Source of the DNA: Gemmatimonadota bacterium
GTDB taxonomy: Bacteria > Gemmatimonadota > Gemmatimonadetes > Gemmatimonadales > Gemmatimonadaceae
Reading direction: 5' to 3'
NCBI GenBank assembly: GCA_016194585.1
Contig: JACQBG010000038.1
Coordinates: 1 to 45,882 of the forward strand
Length of the DNA: 45,882 bases
This document shows positions 36,724 to 41,445 of this stretch, in pieces. The notes beneath the pieces were generated by a model that worked only from the letters and a program-made list of their open reading frames with translations, ran no database searches and was not told where the DNA came from. Every line of letters begins with the position of its first letter. Within the stretch, counting starts at the first letter, position 1. Made by a program: the position numbers and the translations under genes.

Positions 36724-38334
36724 GTGCCCCACCGCATCCTCGTCACCGACGAGATCTACCCCCAAGGCGTCGCGCTGCTCCGCGCCGTGCCGGAGTTCGT
36801 CGTCGACGTCTCGCCCACGCTCGCGCCCGATGCGCTGCTCGCGCGCATCGCCGACTACGACGCGATCATCGGCCGCAGCGCGACGCGCATCTCGGCCGAC
36901 CTCTTGCGCGCCGGCACGAAGCTGCGCGTCGTCGGCCGCGCGGGGGTGGGGGTCGACAACATCGCGCTCGACGTCGCGACGGCGCTCGGCATCGCCGTCA
37001 TCAACGCGCCGTCGGGCAACACGATCGCCGTCGCCGAGCTGTTCTTCGCCTCGATGGTGGGGTTGCTGCGCCAGCTGCCGCGCGCCCACCAGTCGTTGCG
37101 CGAGGGGCGCTGGGAGCGCGCCGACCTCATGGGGAGCGAGCTGCACGGGAAGACGCTCGGCATCGTCGGACTCGGCCGCATCGGCAGCGAGGTCGCGCGG
37201 CGGGCGCGCGCGTTCGGCATGGAACTCATCGGCTACGATCCGTACGTGAACGCCGAGCGGTTCGACGGGCTCTACGTGCGGCGCGCCGCCACGCTCGACG
37301 CGCTCCTCGACGCGGCCCAGTTCGTGACGGTGCACACGCCGCTCAACGAAGAGACGACCGGCATGATCGGCGCGCGCGAGCTCGCGCGCCTGCGGAAGGG
37401 CGCCGTCGTCGCCAACCTCGCGCGCGGCGGCATCGTCGACGAGGCGGCGCTCATCGCGGCGCTGCGCAGCGGGCACCTGGGCGGCGCCACCGTCGACGCG
37501 TTCACCAAGGAACCGCTCAAGGGCGACCACCCGTTCCGCGACGTGCCCAACGTGCTCCTCACCCCGCACATCGGGGCGAGCACGGCCGAGGCGCAGCGGA
37601 ACGTGGCCGTGGACGCGTGCGAGGCGGTGCGCGACGCACTGCTCACCAACGAGCTCTCGCGCTCGCTGAACGTCGGGGAGACGGGGGGCGATTGGGCCGC
37701 GCTGCAACCGGCGCTGCTCGTCGCGCGGCGCGCCGTCGCGGTGGCGCGCGCCATGCTCGCCGAGCGCGGCCACCGCGCCATCGACAGCATCTCGTTGCGC
37801 CTCGGCCCCGAACTGATGGCGGGGCGCGGACCGCTGCTCGCCGCCGCCGCCGTCGGCGCGCTCGAAGGGATCGTCGAGCGCGACCGGCTCAACCTCATCA
37901 ATGCGCGCGCCGTCGCGCACGCGCGCGGCATCACGTTGCTGCACGGCGAGCCGGGCGCACCGCCGCACCCGCGCGCGCTCGAGGTGCGTGTCGCCGCGGC
38001 GGGGGAGTCGATGCGCGTCGGCGGCGTCGCGGCGCTCGACACGCCGCCGCGCCTCACGCGCATCGGCGATTTCCACGTCGACGTCGCGCCGCGCGGCACG
38101 CTGCTCGTGCTCACCAACCGCGACGTGCCGGGGGTCATCGGCCACGTGGGCACCGCGCTCGGCAACGCGGCGGTGAACATCGCCGAGTACCATCAGGCGC
38201 GCCTCGCGCAGGGGGGCGACGCGCTCGCCGTCGTCTCGGTCGACGGCCCCGTGGGCGACGACGTCCGCCGCGCGCTCCTCGCCCTCCCCGACGTCCGCAC
38301 CGCGACCGTCGTGCACTTCGCCGGCCCCGCGTGA
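36724..38334 (+). CDS. serA: D-3-phosphoglycerate dehydrogenase (long form with ACT domain)
   Basis: The product is 536 residues from GTG 36724. The catalytic and NAD domains contain GRAGVGVDNIAL, VGLGRIGSEVARR, ANLARGGIVDE and TPHIGAST (catalytic His). An intervening domain spans ~320-450. A C-terminal ACT domain (TLLVLTNRDVPGVIGHVGTALGNAAVNIAEYHQAR) should bind serine for feedback control. It oxidises 3-phosphoglycerate in the first step of serine synthesis. It is first in a four-gene operon with 4-bp overlaps throughout. A TAGATT box at about 36675 is a possible -10. Confidence 0.96.
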   Translation: MPHRILVTDEIYPQGVALLRAVPEFVVDVSPTLAPDALLARIADYDAIIGRSATRISADLLRAGTKLRVVGRAGVGVDNIALDVATALGIAVINAPSGNTIAVAELFFASMVGLLRQLPRAHQSLREGRWERADLMGSELHGKTLGIVGLGRIGSEVARRARAFGMELIGYDPYVNAERFDGLYVRRAATLDALLDAAQFVTVHTPLNEETTGMIGARELARLRKGAVVANLARGGIVDEAALIAALRSGHLGGATVDAFTKEPLKGDHPFRDVPNVLLTPHIGASTAEAQRNVAVDACEAVRDALLTNELSRSLNVGETGGDWAALQPALLVARRAVAVARAMLAERGHRAIDSISLRLGPELMAGRGPLLAAAAVGALEGIVERDRLNLINARAVAHARGITLLHGEPGAPPHPRALEVRVAAAGESMRVGGVAALDTPPRLTRIGDFHVDVAPRGTLLVLTNRDVPGVIGHVGTALGNAAVNIAEYHQARLAQGGDALAVVSVDGPVGDDVRRALLALPDVRTATVVHFAGPA

Positions 38335-39707
38335 GCGCACTCGACCGCGACCAGTCGGTGCGCGAGTCGTACGCCCGCGACGCCTCAGGCCTCTGGCGCG
38401 TCCCCGACGCCGTGGCCCGCCCGGGCGGTGCGCACGAGGTCGCGACGCTGCTGCGGGAAGCGAACGCCGACGGCACCGCCGTCACCGCCGCCGGCTCGCA
38501 GACGAGCACCACCGGCGCGTCGATCACCGACCGCGGCATCGTGCTCTCCACGCGCGCGATGGCGCGCATCCTCGACGTCGACCGGGCGACGATGACGGCG
38601 CGCGTCGAACCCGGCGTGCTGCTCGGCGATCTGCAGCGCACCCTCGCCGCCGATGGGCTCGCTTTCGCCCCCGACCCGACGAGCGATCAGGAGTGCACCG
38701 TGGGCGGCGCCATCGCCTGCAACGCGTCGGGTCCGCGCTCGCTGCGCTACGGCGCCACGCGCGCGCACGTGCGCGCCCTCACCGTCGTCCTCGCGAGCGG
38801 CGAGACCATCGAGGTGCGCCGCCCGCAGGTCGAGAAGAACGCCGTCGGCTACCCGCCGGTGCAGGACCTCGTCGACTGGTTCGTGGGGAGCGAGGGGACG
38901 CTCGGCGTGATCGTCGCCGCCGACCTCGCGCTGATGCCGCGCCCGGCCCGCGAACTCGGGCTCGCCATCCCGCTCCCCGACGAGTCGCGCGCCCTCGCCT
39001 TCGTCGTCGCGGCGCGCGAGAGCGGCGACGTGCGGCCGCGCTGCCTCGAATACTTCGACGCCGAGTCGTTCGCCATCGCGCGCACCGGCGCCGGCGACGC
39101 CACGTGGGGCGCGACCGCCGGCGCGATGGTGTACGCGGAAGAGACGACCGACGGCGAAGACCCGCCGCTCGACGCCTGGCTCGCCCTCGCGGAACGGTTC
39201 GGCGCGCACGACGGCGACGTGCGCGCCTACGAGGGCGACGCGGCGATCCGCGAGGCCCGCCGCCTGCGGCACGCGGTGCCCGCGACGATGCACGAGCGCG
39301 TCGCGCCCTTCCTCGCCGCCGGCGGGCGGCGCGTCTCCACCGACTGGGCCGTGCCCTACCGCCGCGCCGCCGAGGCCGTCGCGATGGCGCGCCGGCATGC
39401 CGCCGACGCGAACGTCGCCCCCGGCATCGTCTACGGCCACCTCGGCAACGGCCACCCGCATCAGAACTTCGTCGCCCACGACCCGGCCGAGGTGCGCGCC
39501 TTCGAAGCCGTCGTCGAACGCACGGTGCGCGACGTGCTGGCGATGGGCGGCACCGTCTCCGCCGAACACGGCATCGGCAAGCTGAAGGCCCGCTGGCTCC
39601 CGCTGCAACTCTCCCCGACGCAGGTCGCGATGCTGCGCGCCATCAAGCGTGAACTCGACCCGCGGGGCATCCTCGCCCCGGGCAACATCCTCGGGAGTGC
39701 GGCATGA
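38331..39707 (+). CDS. FAD-linked oxidase, D-lactate/D-2-hydroxyglutarate dehydrogenase family
   Basis: The product is 458 residues from GTG 38331, overlapping serA (GTGA). The PCMH-type FAD domain is seen in TVTAAGSQTSTTGASI, DPTSDQECTVGGAIACNASGPRSLRYGATRAHV and GSEGTLGVI. The substrate domain has YGHLGNGHPHQNF (metal His) and ends SAEHGIGKLKARWL. The family oxidises D-2-hydroxyacids. Because it is coupled to serA, the likely substrate is D-2-hydroxyglutarate, which SerA enzymes can make from 2-oxoglutarate while recycling NADH. D-lactate or glycolate are alternatives. Confidence 0.88.
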   Translation: MSALDRDQSVRESYARDASGLWRVPDAVARPGGAHEVATLLREANADGTAVTAAGSQTSTTGASITDRGIVLSTRAMARILDVDRATMTARVEPGVLLGDLQRTLAADGLAFAPDPTSDQECTVGGAIACNASGPRSLRYGATRAHVRALTVVLASGETIEVRRPQVEKNAVGYPPVQDLVDWFVGSEGTLGVIVAADLALMPRPARELGLAIPLPDESRALAFVVAARESGDVRPRCLEYFDAESFAIARTGAGDATWGATAGAMVYAEETTDGEDPPLDAWLALAERFGAHDGDVRAYEGDAAIREARRLRHAVPATMHERVAPFLAAGGRRVSTDWAVPYRRAAEAVAMARRHAADANVAPGIVYGHLGNGHPHQNFVAHDPAEVRAFEAVVERTVRDVLAMGGTVSAEHGIGKLKARWLPLQLSPTQVAMLRAIKRELDPRGILAPGNILGSAA

Positions 39708-40357
39708 CCCCGCGATTCAAGTCCGTGGTGCTCGACGTGGACATGACCCTGAGCGGCGTCGAAGGGATCGACTGGCTCGCCGCGCACCGCAACGAGGCGC
39801 TGCGCGCTTTCGTCACCCAGCGCACCGCCGACGCGATGGCCGGCACGGTGCCGCTCGACGCGGTGTACGGCGAGCGCCTCGACTCGGTGGCGCCGACGCT
39901 CGCCGAGCTGCAGACGCTCGGCCTCGCCTACCGCACGAAGCTCGCGCCGCAGGCGCGCGAGGCGGTGCGCTCGCTACTCGACGCCGGCGTGCGCGTCGTG
40001 CTCGTGAGCGGCGGACTCCGCATCGCCGTGCTCGCGCTCGCCGACGCGCTCGGCATCCCGGAGAGCGACGTGCACGCGGTGCAGACGATCCACAACGAGC
40101 GCGGGCTGTACGACGGCTTCGACCACCGCTCGCCGCTCGCGACGCAGGAAGGCAAGCCGACCATCGTCCGCACCCTCGGCCTCCCCGCTCTCGTGCTCGC
40201 CGTCGGCGACGGCAGCACCGACCTCGCCATCCGCGTGGCCGGAGCCGCCGACGCCTTCGCCGCGTACACCGGCTTCGTGCGGCGCGACGCGGTCGTCGCG
40301 GGCGCCGACCACGTGATCGCTTCGTTCCCCGACCTCATCTCCCTCGTGCTCCCATGA
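39704..40357 (+). CDS. serB: HAD family phosphatase, probable phosphoserine phosphatase
   Basis: The product is 217 residues. HAD motifs are DVDMTLSGVEGIDWLA (motif I, DxDxT, with the E and D typical of SerB), VLVSGGLRIAV (motif II), Lys in QEGKPTIVR, and AVGDGSTDLAI (motif III). The ATG at 39704 overlaps the flavoprotein gene by 4 bp, and its TGA overlaps the aminotransferase start. It hydrolyses phosphoserine to serine, the last step of the pathway started by serA in the same operon. Confidence 0.9.
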   Translation: MTPRFKSVVLDVDMTLSGVEGIDWLAAHRNEALRAFVTQRTADAMAGTVPLDAVYGERLDSVAPTLAELQTLGLAYRTKLAPQAREAVRSLLDAGVRVVLVSGGLRIAVLALADALGIPESDVHAVQTIHNERGLYDGFDHRSPLATQEGKPTIVRTLGLPALVLAVGDGSTDLAIRVAGAADAFAAYTGFVRRDAVVAGADHVIASFPDLISLVLP

Positions 40358-41445
40358 CCCGCTTCGGCACCTTCTTCGTCCCCGGCCCCACGGAAGTCCG
40401 CCACGACGTGCTCGCGGCGATGCTCCAGCCGATGATCCCGCACCGGAGCGCCGCGTTCGAGGCGATCTTCGAGCGCACGCAGCGCGGCTTGAAGCACGTG
40501 TTCCGCACGACGCGCCCCGTGTACGTCTCGGCGAGCTCGGGGAGCGGCATGATGGAGGCCGCGATCCGCAACGCGCCCGCCGGCCCGATCCTCTGCCTCG
40601 TCAATGGCGCCTTCTCCGACCGGTTCGCGAGCATCGCCCGCGCCTGCGACCGCGAGGTGGTGGTGCTGCAAGCGGAGTGGGGCGCCGTGCACGACCTCGA
40701 CGCCGTCGACCGCGCGCTCTCGAGCGGACGGTTCGCGGCGATGACGGCCACGCACTCCGAGACGTCGACCGGCGCGCTGAGCGACGTCGCGGCGCTCGCG
40801 AAGATCGCCCACACGCATGGCGCGATGATCCTCGTCGACAGCGTGAGCGGCCTCGGCGGCGCGCCCCTCGAGACCGACGCCTAGCAGCTCGACTTCGCGC
40901 TCACCGGCTCGCAGAAAGCGCTCGCCCTCCCGCCGGGACTCTCCTTCGGCGTGGCGAGCGAGGCGTTCGTGCTGCAGGCGCAGACCGCGCACTCGCGGGG
41001 CCGCTACTTCGACATCGTCGAGCTCGAGGAGTTCGCCCACAAGAACAACACACCGGCCACGCCCGCCGTGTCGCTGATGTACGCGCTCGACGCGCAGCTC
41101 CCGACGATCGTCGCCGAAGGCATCGAGGCGCGCTGGGCGCGGCACGAGCGGATGCGCGAGCTCACCGAGCGCTGGGCCGCGTCGCTCGCCGGCACAAGCA
41201 TCTTCGCCGCGGCCGGCGCGCGCTCCCCCACGGTGAGCGTCATCAAGCTCCCCGACGGCGTGCGCGGCCCCGACGCGGTGAAGGCGATCGCCGAGCGCGG
41301 CATCACCGTGGCCGGCGGCTACGGCAAGCTCGCCGAGACGACGTTCCGCATCGGCCACATGGGCGATCACACCGTCGACGGCGTGCAACGCTGCCTCGAC
41401 GGGTGCACGGGCGCGCTGACGTCGCTGGGGGTCGCCGCGCGCTGA
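40354..41445 (+). pseudogene. Class V aminotransferase (phosphoserine/alanine-glyoxylate type) with in-frame TAG
   Basis: Reading ATG 40354 to TGA 41445 gives 363 codons of a complete fold-type I class V aminotransferase, except that codon 177 is TAG (40882-40884). Upstream are FFVPGPTEVRHDVL, SSGSGMMEAAI and LVDSVSGLGGAPLETDA; downstream QLDFALTGSQKALALPPGLSFG continues with PLP Lys188, to FRIGHMGDHT. Relatives have Trp after ETDA, so TGG to TAG is the simplest reading. The truncated 176-residue product would lack the PLP lysine. The frame downstream is fully intact, so the change is recent, an error, or tolerated by suppression. The operon position (serA, serB) predicts phosphoserine aminotransferase function. 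Confidence 0.85.

Follow-up and report, generated by a model that had tools for sequence, protein, structure and literature searches.

An FAD-linked dehydrogenase from a separate 2-hydroxyacid dehydrogenase clade is coupled to serA in a serine operon of Gemmatimonadota

A contig of 45,882 nucleotides from a Gemmatimonadota bacterium (JACQBG010000038.1 of assembly GCA_016194585.1), analysed at full length and referred to here as the window, carries four plus-strand genes in which a flavoprotein gene, designated FLAV, lies among genes of serine biosynthesis. The order is serA (36724..38334), which encodes a type I D-3-phosphoglycerate dehydrogenase; FLAV (38331..39707), which has a GTG start and encodes a flavin adenine dinucleotide (FAD)-linked D-2-hydroxyacid dehydrogenase of 458 residues from an uncharacterised clade; a serB-like gene for a HAD-IB phosphatase (39704..40357); and a gene for a class V aminotransferase, serC-like by context and interrupted by a TAG codon (40354..41445). 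Each junction is a 4-bp overlap. A sequence-only reading of this DNA had placed FLAV between serA and serB with such overlaps on both sides, and this was confirmed: stop and start codons merge in GTGA between serA and FLAV (38331..38334) and in ATGA between FLAV and the phosphatase gene (39704..39707). The aminotransferase is a fourth coupled gene, which that reading had not included.

SerA matches the PGDH model TIGR01327 over its full length (518 bits; cut-off 454). Its 2-Hacid_dh and 2-Hacid_dh_C domains score above the Pfam cut-offs, and its ACT domain reaches 22 bits, under the 27-bit cut-off. The HAD protein scores 67.6 bits against the serB model TIGR00338, below the cut-off of 144, and 57.5 bits against TIGR01488, above the cut-off of 45; it is the sole serB match in the window's genome at E≤1e-5. 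Its place in the operon fits SerB despite the sub-cut-off score. Both halves of the aminotransferase match PF00266, and the gene sits next to serA across the phylum. A profile search of the window's genome with the canonical serC model (TIGR01364) gave no match.

Conservation of the linkage was assessed in a sample of 200 phylum genomes that contained the window's genome. The FLAV search was bimodal: matches of at least 55% identity occurred in 51 of the 200 genomes, and the other listed matches lay at 29-37%. By position comparison, serA adjoins FLAV in 47 of these 51 genomes, including one (G062) whose serA end lies at a contig edge. The remaining four are G057, G188, G044, and G146; in G146, FLAV lies on a 6.4-kb contig and a diverged partial SerA is found elsewhere in the genome. 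The cluster aminotransferase accompanies FLAV in 39 of the 51, as read off the search tables. Among 73 distinct FLAV loci, the gap between serA and FLAV was at most 30 bp in 58 of the 64 that could be measured; the FLAV-HAD and HAD-aminotransferase junctions were as tight in 47 of 55 and 44 of 49 cases, respectively. Exact 4-bp overlaps were counted at 30/64, 40/55, and 33/49 of the three junctions in the same order, shares that are biased upward because the script chose the start codon nearest to a -4 overlap, an effect that bears less on tightness. Since the junctions fall within 30 bp in most distinct loci, the tight gene coupling is not due to chance. Within family f1, to which the window belongs (69 genomes), FLAV was present in 39 of the 43 genomes that have a near SerA (identity of 59% or more) and in 2 of the 26 that lack one, again counted from the search tables. 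The link between serA and FLAV is real and old, and the tie of FLAV to serine metabolism is well supported. The sequence-only reading had made its proposal depend on serA linkage in relatives, and this linkage was retained. G026, in which serA adjoins FLAV, carries a second copy of serA without the remainder of the operon (L139, G026:C27:35445-37076). A FLAV gene 71% identical to that of the window was found at L087, in a record titled Candidatus Kuenenia stuttgartiensis that is probably a mislabelled Gemmatimonadota bin.

Pfam assigns FLAV an FAD_binding_4 domain (PF01565, 132 bits; residues 25-162, 38403..38816) and a FAD-oxidase_C substrate domain (PF02913, 123 bits; residues 211-453, 38961..39689), both above cut-offs, and the protein has the VAO-type fold. 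The substrate domain contains R313, R334, S336, H370, H375, H377, N379, E412, H413, and K417. Against NCBIfam no family cut-off was passed; the best match was TIGR00387 (GlcD) at 204.1 bits, with a cut-off of 567.9. An AlphaFold2 model built on 74 sequences had a mean predicted local distance difference test score of 94.4. Its fold matches were two D-lactate dehydrogenases (Z 45.2 and 45.1), LctD (44.5), 3pm9 (42.8), and human D-2-hydroxyglutarate dehydrogenase (D2HGDH; 42.5), so that comparison of the predicted fold, with all three kinds at Z 42.5-45.2, does not decide the substrate. Likeness to alkyl-dihydroxyacetone phosphate synthase in a GxGKLK..W stretch (E 2e-7 over 64 residues) was also considered; its fold Z of about 33 is well below those of the 2-hydroxyacid dehydrogenases, and nothing was drawn from it.

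A tree of 39 rows was built from 14 of 69 FLAV orthologues, 14 of 27 distant members, chosen by hand, and 11 references. In it, FLAV grouped with the distant members in one clade (100/99), apart from D2HGDH, GlcD, and D-lactate dehydrogenase (each 100/100) and also from YdiJ; relations between the clades lack resolution, and the placement of YdiJ and of the genome's own C12 protein, both on long branches, is unsure. Clustering with GlcD, an outcome that the sequence-only reading had named as contrary to it, did not occur. YdiJ identity was rejected on score and size, FLAV reaching 115.9 bits against the NF049975 cut-off of 1350 and having 458 residues against about 1018. The distant members belong to Acidobacteriota, Ignavibacteriota, Chlorobiota, Myxococcota, Pseudomonadota, and other groups. 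With tblastn, the flanks of 28 distant loci (L084, L085, and L089-L114) contained no relatives of the operon SerA, HAD protein, or aminotransferase beside the gene. In 24 of the 28, neighbours called by an open reading frame script were compared with the operon proteins, and 19 neighbour proteins were judged by eye and without a family scan; none of the neighbours appeared to be a serine gene. At 11 of these loci, all in acidobacterial records (L089, L090, L091, L100, L102-L105, L109, L112, and L113), a HAD hydrolase gene lies directly downstream of the FLAV relative; a gene that we take, by eye, to be uvrB lies upstream at ten of them.

The active site was compared across 69 orthologues and 27 distant members (96 clade members) and 9 references. 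In human D2HGDH, Arg386, His434, His441, Glu475, and His476 have catalytic or metal-binding roles, and Lys401, which is essential and strictly conserved in orthologues, holds the C5 carboxylate of D-2-hydroxyglutarate (PMC7801405). The first five correspond to R313, H370, H377, E412, and H413 of FLAV, which are present in 96 of 96 clade members. FLAV has two domains and all five residues, in support of its assignment to the 2-hydroxyacid dehydrogenases by the sequence-only reading. Two residues before the Lys401 site, and on the same predicted strand in the AlphaFold2 model, position 334 (R334 in FLAV) is Lys or Arg in all 96 members and in none of the 9 references. The Tyr432 site (Y368) is Tyr in 58 and Phe in 11 of the 69 orthologues, and the Asn443 site (N379) is Asn in 67 and His in 2; N379 also occurs in the genome's own GlcD-like and C12 proteins and is therefore not specific. 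H375 and K417 are invariant in the clade; the former also occurs in the C12 protein, and the latter is Arg in GlcD and C12. Because a basic residue stands at 334 throughout, on the strand of the Lys401 site, we infer that the pocket may receive a side chain of acidic character, bound there by a basic residue other than Lys401.

Genomes in which parts of the operon are missing bear on its history. At seven loci outside the FLAV clade (L132-L138), the aminotransferase gene is followed directly by serA with no FLAV, and five of these have a HAD gene upstream. In a SerA tree of 53 hand-chosen rows, 39 of them FLAV-linked, the FLAV-less SerA proteins are partly nested among the linked ones, and the starred branches force at least four changes; one gain of FLAV followed by several losses is therefore the simplest reading. 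In G057 and G188, serA and the HAD gene have been deleted, and FLAV and the aminotransferase gene remain side by side. G057 keeps the window synteny on both flanks, with FLAV and the aminotransferase alone between them; from their translations, the flanking genes presumably encode an MBL protein, pyruvate kinase, and a GNAT protein on one side and an SRPBCC protein, a dipeptidase, and a carboxypeptidase-regulatory-like protein on the other. In G188 (L124), a 26-codon open reading frame lies just upstream of FLAV, its stop overlaps FLAV by GTGA, and over its first 15 codons it is similar to the beginning of SerA in G182; it is apparently a scar of the serA deletion in which start and coupling were kept. 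All SerA-model matches in G057 and G188 were below cut-off, no canonical serC was found, and a serB search, which could overlook SerB proteins of a different type, gave no match. In G044, FLAV has no serA, HAD gene, or cluster aminotransferase beside it.

The FLAV frames of G057, G188, and G044 are open at full length (464, 469, and 459 residues, respectively) and keep the catalytic residues; the TGA counted inside the G057 match is the end of the frame. By the Nei-Gojobori method, nonsynonymous (dN) and synonymous (dS) distances were 0.199 and 1.47 for G057 versus L087, 0.089 and 0.84 for G188 versus L043, and 0.135 and 0.62 for the serA-linked pair L017-L043. The resulting dN/dS-type ratios of 0.11-0.22 give no sign of relaxation in G057 or G188 over intervals that include time before the loss of serA. 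In G063, an operon-less genome of the same genus, a canonical serC (TIGR01364, 518 bits) adjoins another D-2-hydroxyacid dehydrogenase gene (G063:C5:146953-148961), an apparent replacement of the serine genes. The short D-2-hydroxyacid dehydrogenases of SerA-less genomes, with sub-cut-off scores, look to us like glyoxylate reductases and not SerA; two of them adjoin a gene that, judged by eye from N-termini, we take to be icd-like.

The adjacency and co-retention of FLAV with SerA, the catalytic residues, the basic residue at 334, Y368 and N379, the near-absence of canonical D2HGDH, the presence of electron-transferring flavoprotein (ETF) genes, and the frequency of serA beside d2hgdh elsewhere lead us to favour, with a probability that we put somewhat below even, a reading in which FLAV oxidises an acidic D-2-hydroxyacid made by SerA, in a reaction coupled to serine synthesis, with D-2-hydroxyglutarate as the first candidate. 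FLAV would be an FAD-dependent dehydrogenase of acidic D-2-hydroxyacids, probably metal-dependent. It would be made in step with SerA, the SerB-like phosphatase, and the SerC-like aminotransferase. SerA, using its NADH, would reduce a 2-oxoacid, possibly 2-oxoglutarate, to the D-2-hydroxyacid, which FLAV would re-oxidise, thereby pulling the oxidation of 3-phosphoglycerate forward; electrons would leave through the flavin to ETF or to quinone.

A system of this kind is known from Pseudomonas stutzeri, where a type II SerA is coupled to canonical D2HGDH (PMC9504171, PMC8651671). Serine synthesis begins with an energetically uphill step, and its flavin coupling has been worked out in Proteobacteria with type II SerA (PMC9504171). 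The operon described here is alike in associating a flavin-dependent 2-hydroxyacid dehydrogenase with SerA where ETF is available; it differs in that its SerA is of type I, its flavoprotein belongs to another clade, and both are encoded in a single operon together with serB-like and serC-like genes. With D2HGDH of the human and Rhodopseudomonas type (6lpn, 3pm9), FLAV shares the fold, the catalytic and metal residues, the Asn443 site, and mostly the Tyr432 site, and it differs in its Ser or Gly at the Lys401 site, Pro at the Thr390 site, basic residue at 334, and separate clade. The mitochondrial-type D-lactate dehydrogenase mLDHD (8jdc series) is closest in fold (Z about 45) and also has Ser at the Lys401 site, whereas its Asn443 site is Ile, its Tyr432 site is Val, and its position 334 is not basic. 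E. coli YdiJ, of 1018 residues as against 458, is a non-canonical D2HGDH, so that the activity occurs in more than one protein family (PMC9504171).

Several observations weigh against the favoured reading. FLAV falls in its own clade and not with the D2HGDH references 6lpn and 3pm9; all 96 clade members have Ser or Gly at the Lys401 site (S336 in FLAV), and all 69 orthologues have Pro at the Thr390 site. Canonical D2HGDH identity was rejected on the tree placement and the Lys401 site, and the D2HGDH identity suggested in the sequence-only reading is not supported. That reading also relied on 2-oxoglutarate reduction by SerA enzymes, which finds no support here: the operon SerA is of type I, and 2-oxoglutarate reduction by type I enzymes is disputed. 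According to PMC9504171, the activity is common to type II SerA and absent in the type I and III enzymes examined, though the human enzyme is listed as active; PMC8073719 reports it for human SerA and cites the M. tuberculosis and rat enzymes as lacking it. As these accounts are divided, production of D-2-hydroxyglutarate by the type I SerA of the operon is uncertain. All 18 genomes tried have ETF genes, the window's genome having two such genes, and these do not discriminate because FLAV-less genomes have them as well. The genomes behind the co-retention counts are not independent, and adjacent genes can vanish together through linkage alone. Most of the phylum sample runs SerA with neither FLAV nor canonical D2HGDH, a query for which matched 4 of the 200 genomes at E≤1e-55, one alone at 48% identity, and gave no match in the window's genome. 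A pattern of mutual exclusion between FLAV and D2HGDH was sought in the 200 genomes and not found, canonical D2HGDH being nearly absent from them. Five genomes (G047, G094, and G112, which are of one genus, G093, and G141) keep serA, HAD, and aminotransferase genes with no FLAV there, and the L087 genome has these three at one place and FLAV at another; FLAV is in turn kept in G057, G188, and G044, which have no SerA above the model cut-off. The earlier description of the pairing as hard-wired is therefore too strong.

The deletions in G057 and G188 are what gives weight to a different role, in which FLAV feeds the aminotransferase by oxidising D-glycerate or 3-phosphoglycerate, both of which are D-2-hydroxyacids, to hydroxypyruvate or phosphohydroxypyruvate, flavin replacing NAD in the SerA step. 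Both genomes kept the FLAV-aminotransferase pair with no serB match, canonical serC, or above-cut-off SerA, their FLAV genes give no sign of relaxation, and K417, H375, and R/K334 would supply extra basic residues. A similar aminotransferase is, however, kept in genomes without serA and FLAV (e.g., L203-L206), so its retention does not need FLAV; moreover, FLAV stands alone in G044, the distant clade members adjoin neither serA nor an aminotransferase gene, and a single search of open-licence papers brought up no such flavin-linked enzyme. We consider this role rather unlikely. Its fullest form, in which FLAV acts as a flavin-linked dehydrogenase of D-glycerate or 3-phosphoglycerate and two lineages dropped SerA and SerB, retaining FLAV and the aminotransferase as a two-gene serine route, appears improbable; were it true, FLAV would be an energetically favoured alternative to the NAD-linked step of SerA.

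Retention of FLAV without serA in three genomes also agrees with a broad or D-lactate-type D-2-hydroxyacid dehydrogenase whose operon place is a historical accident or serves general clean-up, and so do Ser336, shared with mouse D-lactate dehydrogenase, and the ranking of D-lactate dehydrogenases above D2HGDH in the fold search. The Z values of these neighbouring families are close, however, and fold does not give the substrate; the strong co-retention with SerA and the tight gene coupling speak against such an enzyme, as does the fit of R/K334 and N379 to a side chain of acidic character. We hold this reading to be rather unlikely as well. A glycolate dehydrogenase beside serine genes is highly improbable. 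FLAV shares domain content and catalytic residues with GlcD, and its best NCBIfam match is the GlcD model, but at 204 bits against a cut-off of 568; it lies in a separate clade, no glcE or glcF is found beside it, and another gene of the same genome (C33) groups with E. coli GlcD at 100/100. GlcD identity was rejected on family score and tree.

The pairing of serA with d2hgdh is already of a known kind, as serA is among the most frequent d2hgdh neighbours (PMC8651671). What is new is that a flavoprotein of this clade occupies the position, that the serine operon is complete, and that parts of it have been lost in the pattern described; the open-licence papers listed in literature searches included none on a flavoprotein gene within a serine operon of Gemmatimonadota. 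As the conserved operon joins a type I SerA to a flavoprotein from a different clade, the results suggest that flavin coupling, or flavin replacement of the SerA step, arose more than once.

The TAG that interrupts the aminotransferase of the window lies at codon 177 (40882..40884). Among 81 distinct sequences aligned, one of which does not cover the site, TGG was present in 80 of 80 covering relatives; the aminotransferase of L083, also in this set, has a stop elsewhere in its match. As TAG is one base change from TGG, the codon appears to be either a recent mutation or a sequence error. If it is genuine, the strain may depend on serine or on a different aminotransferase.

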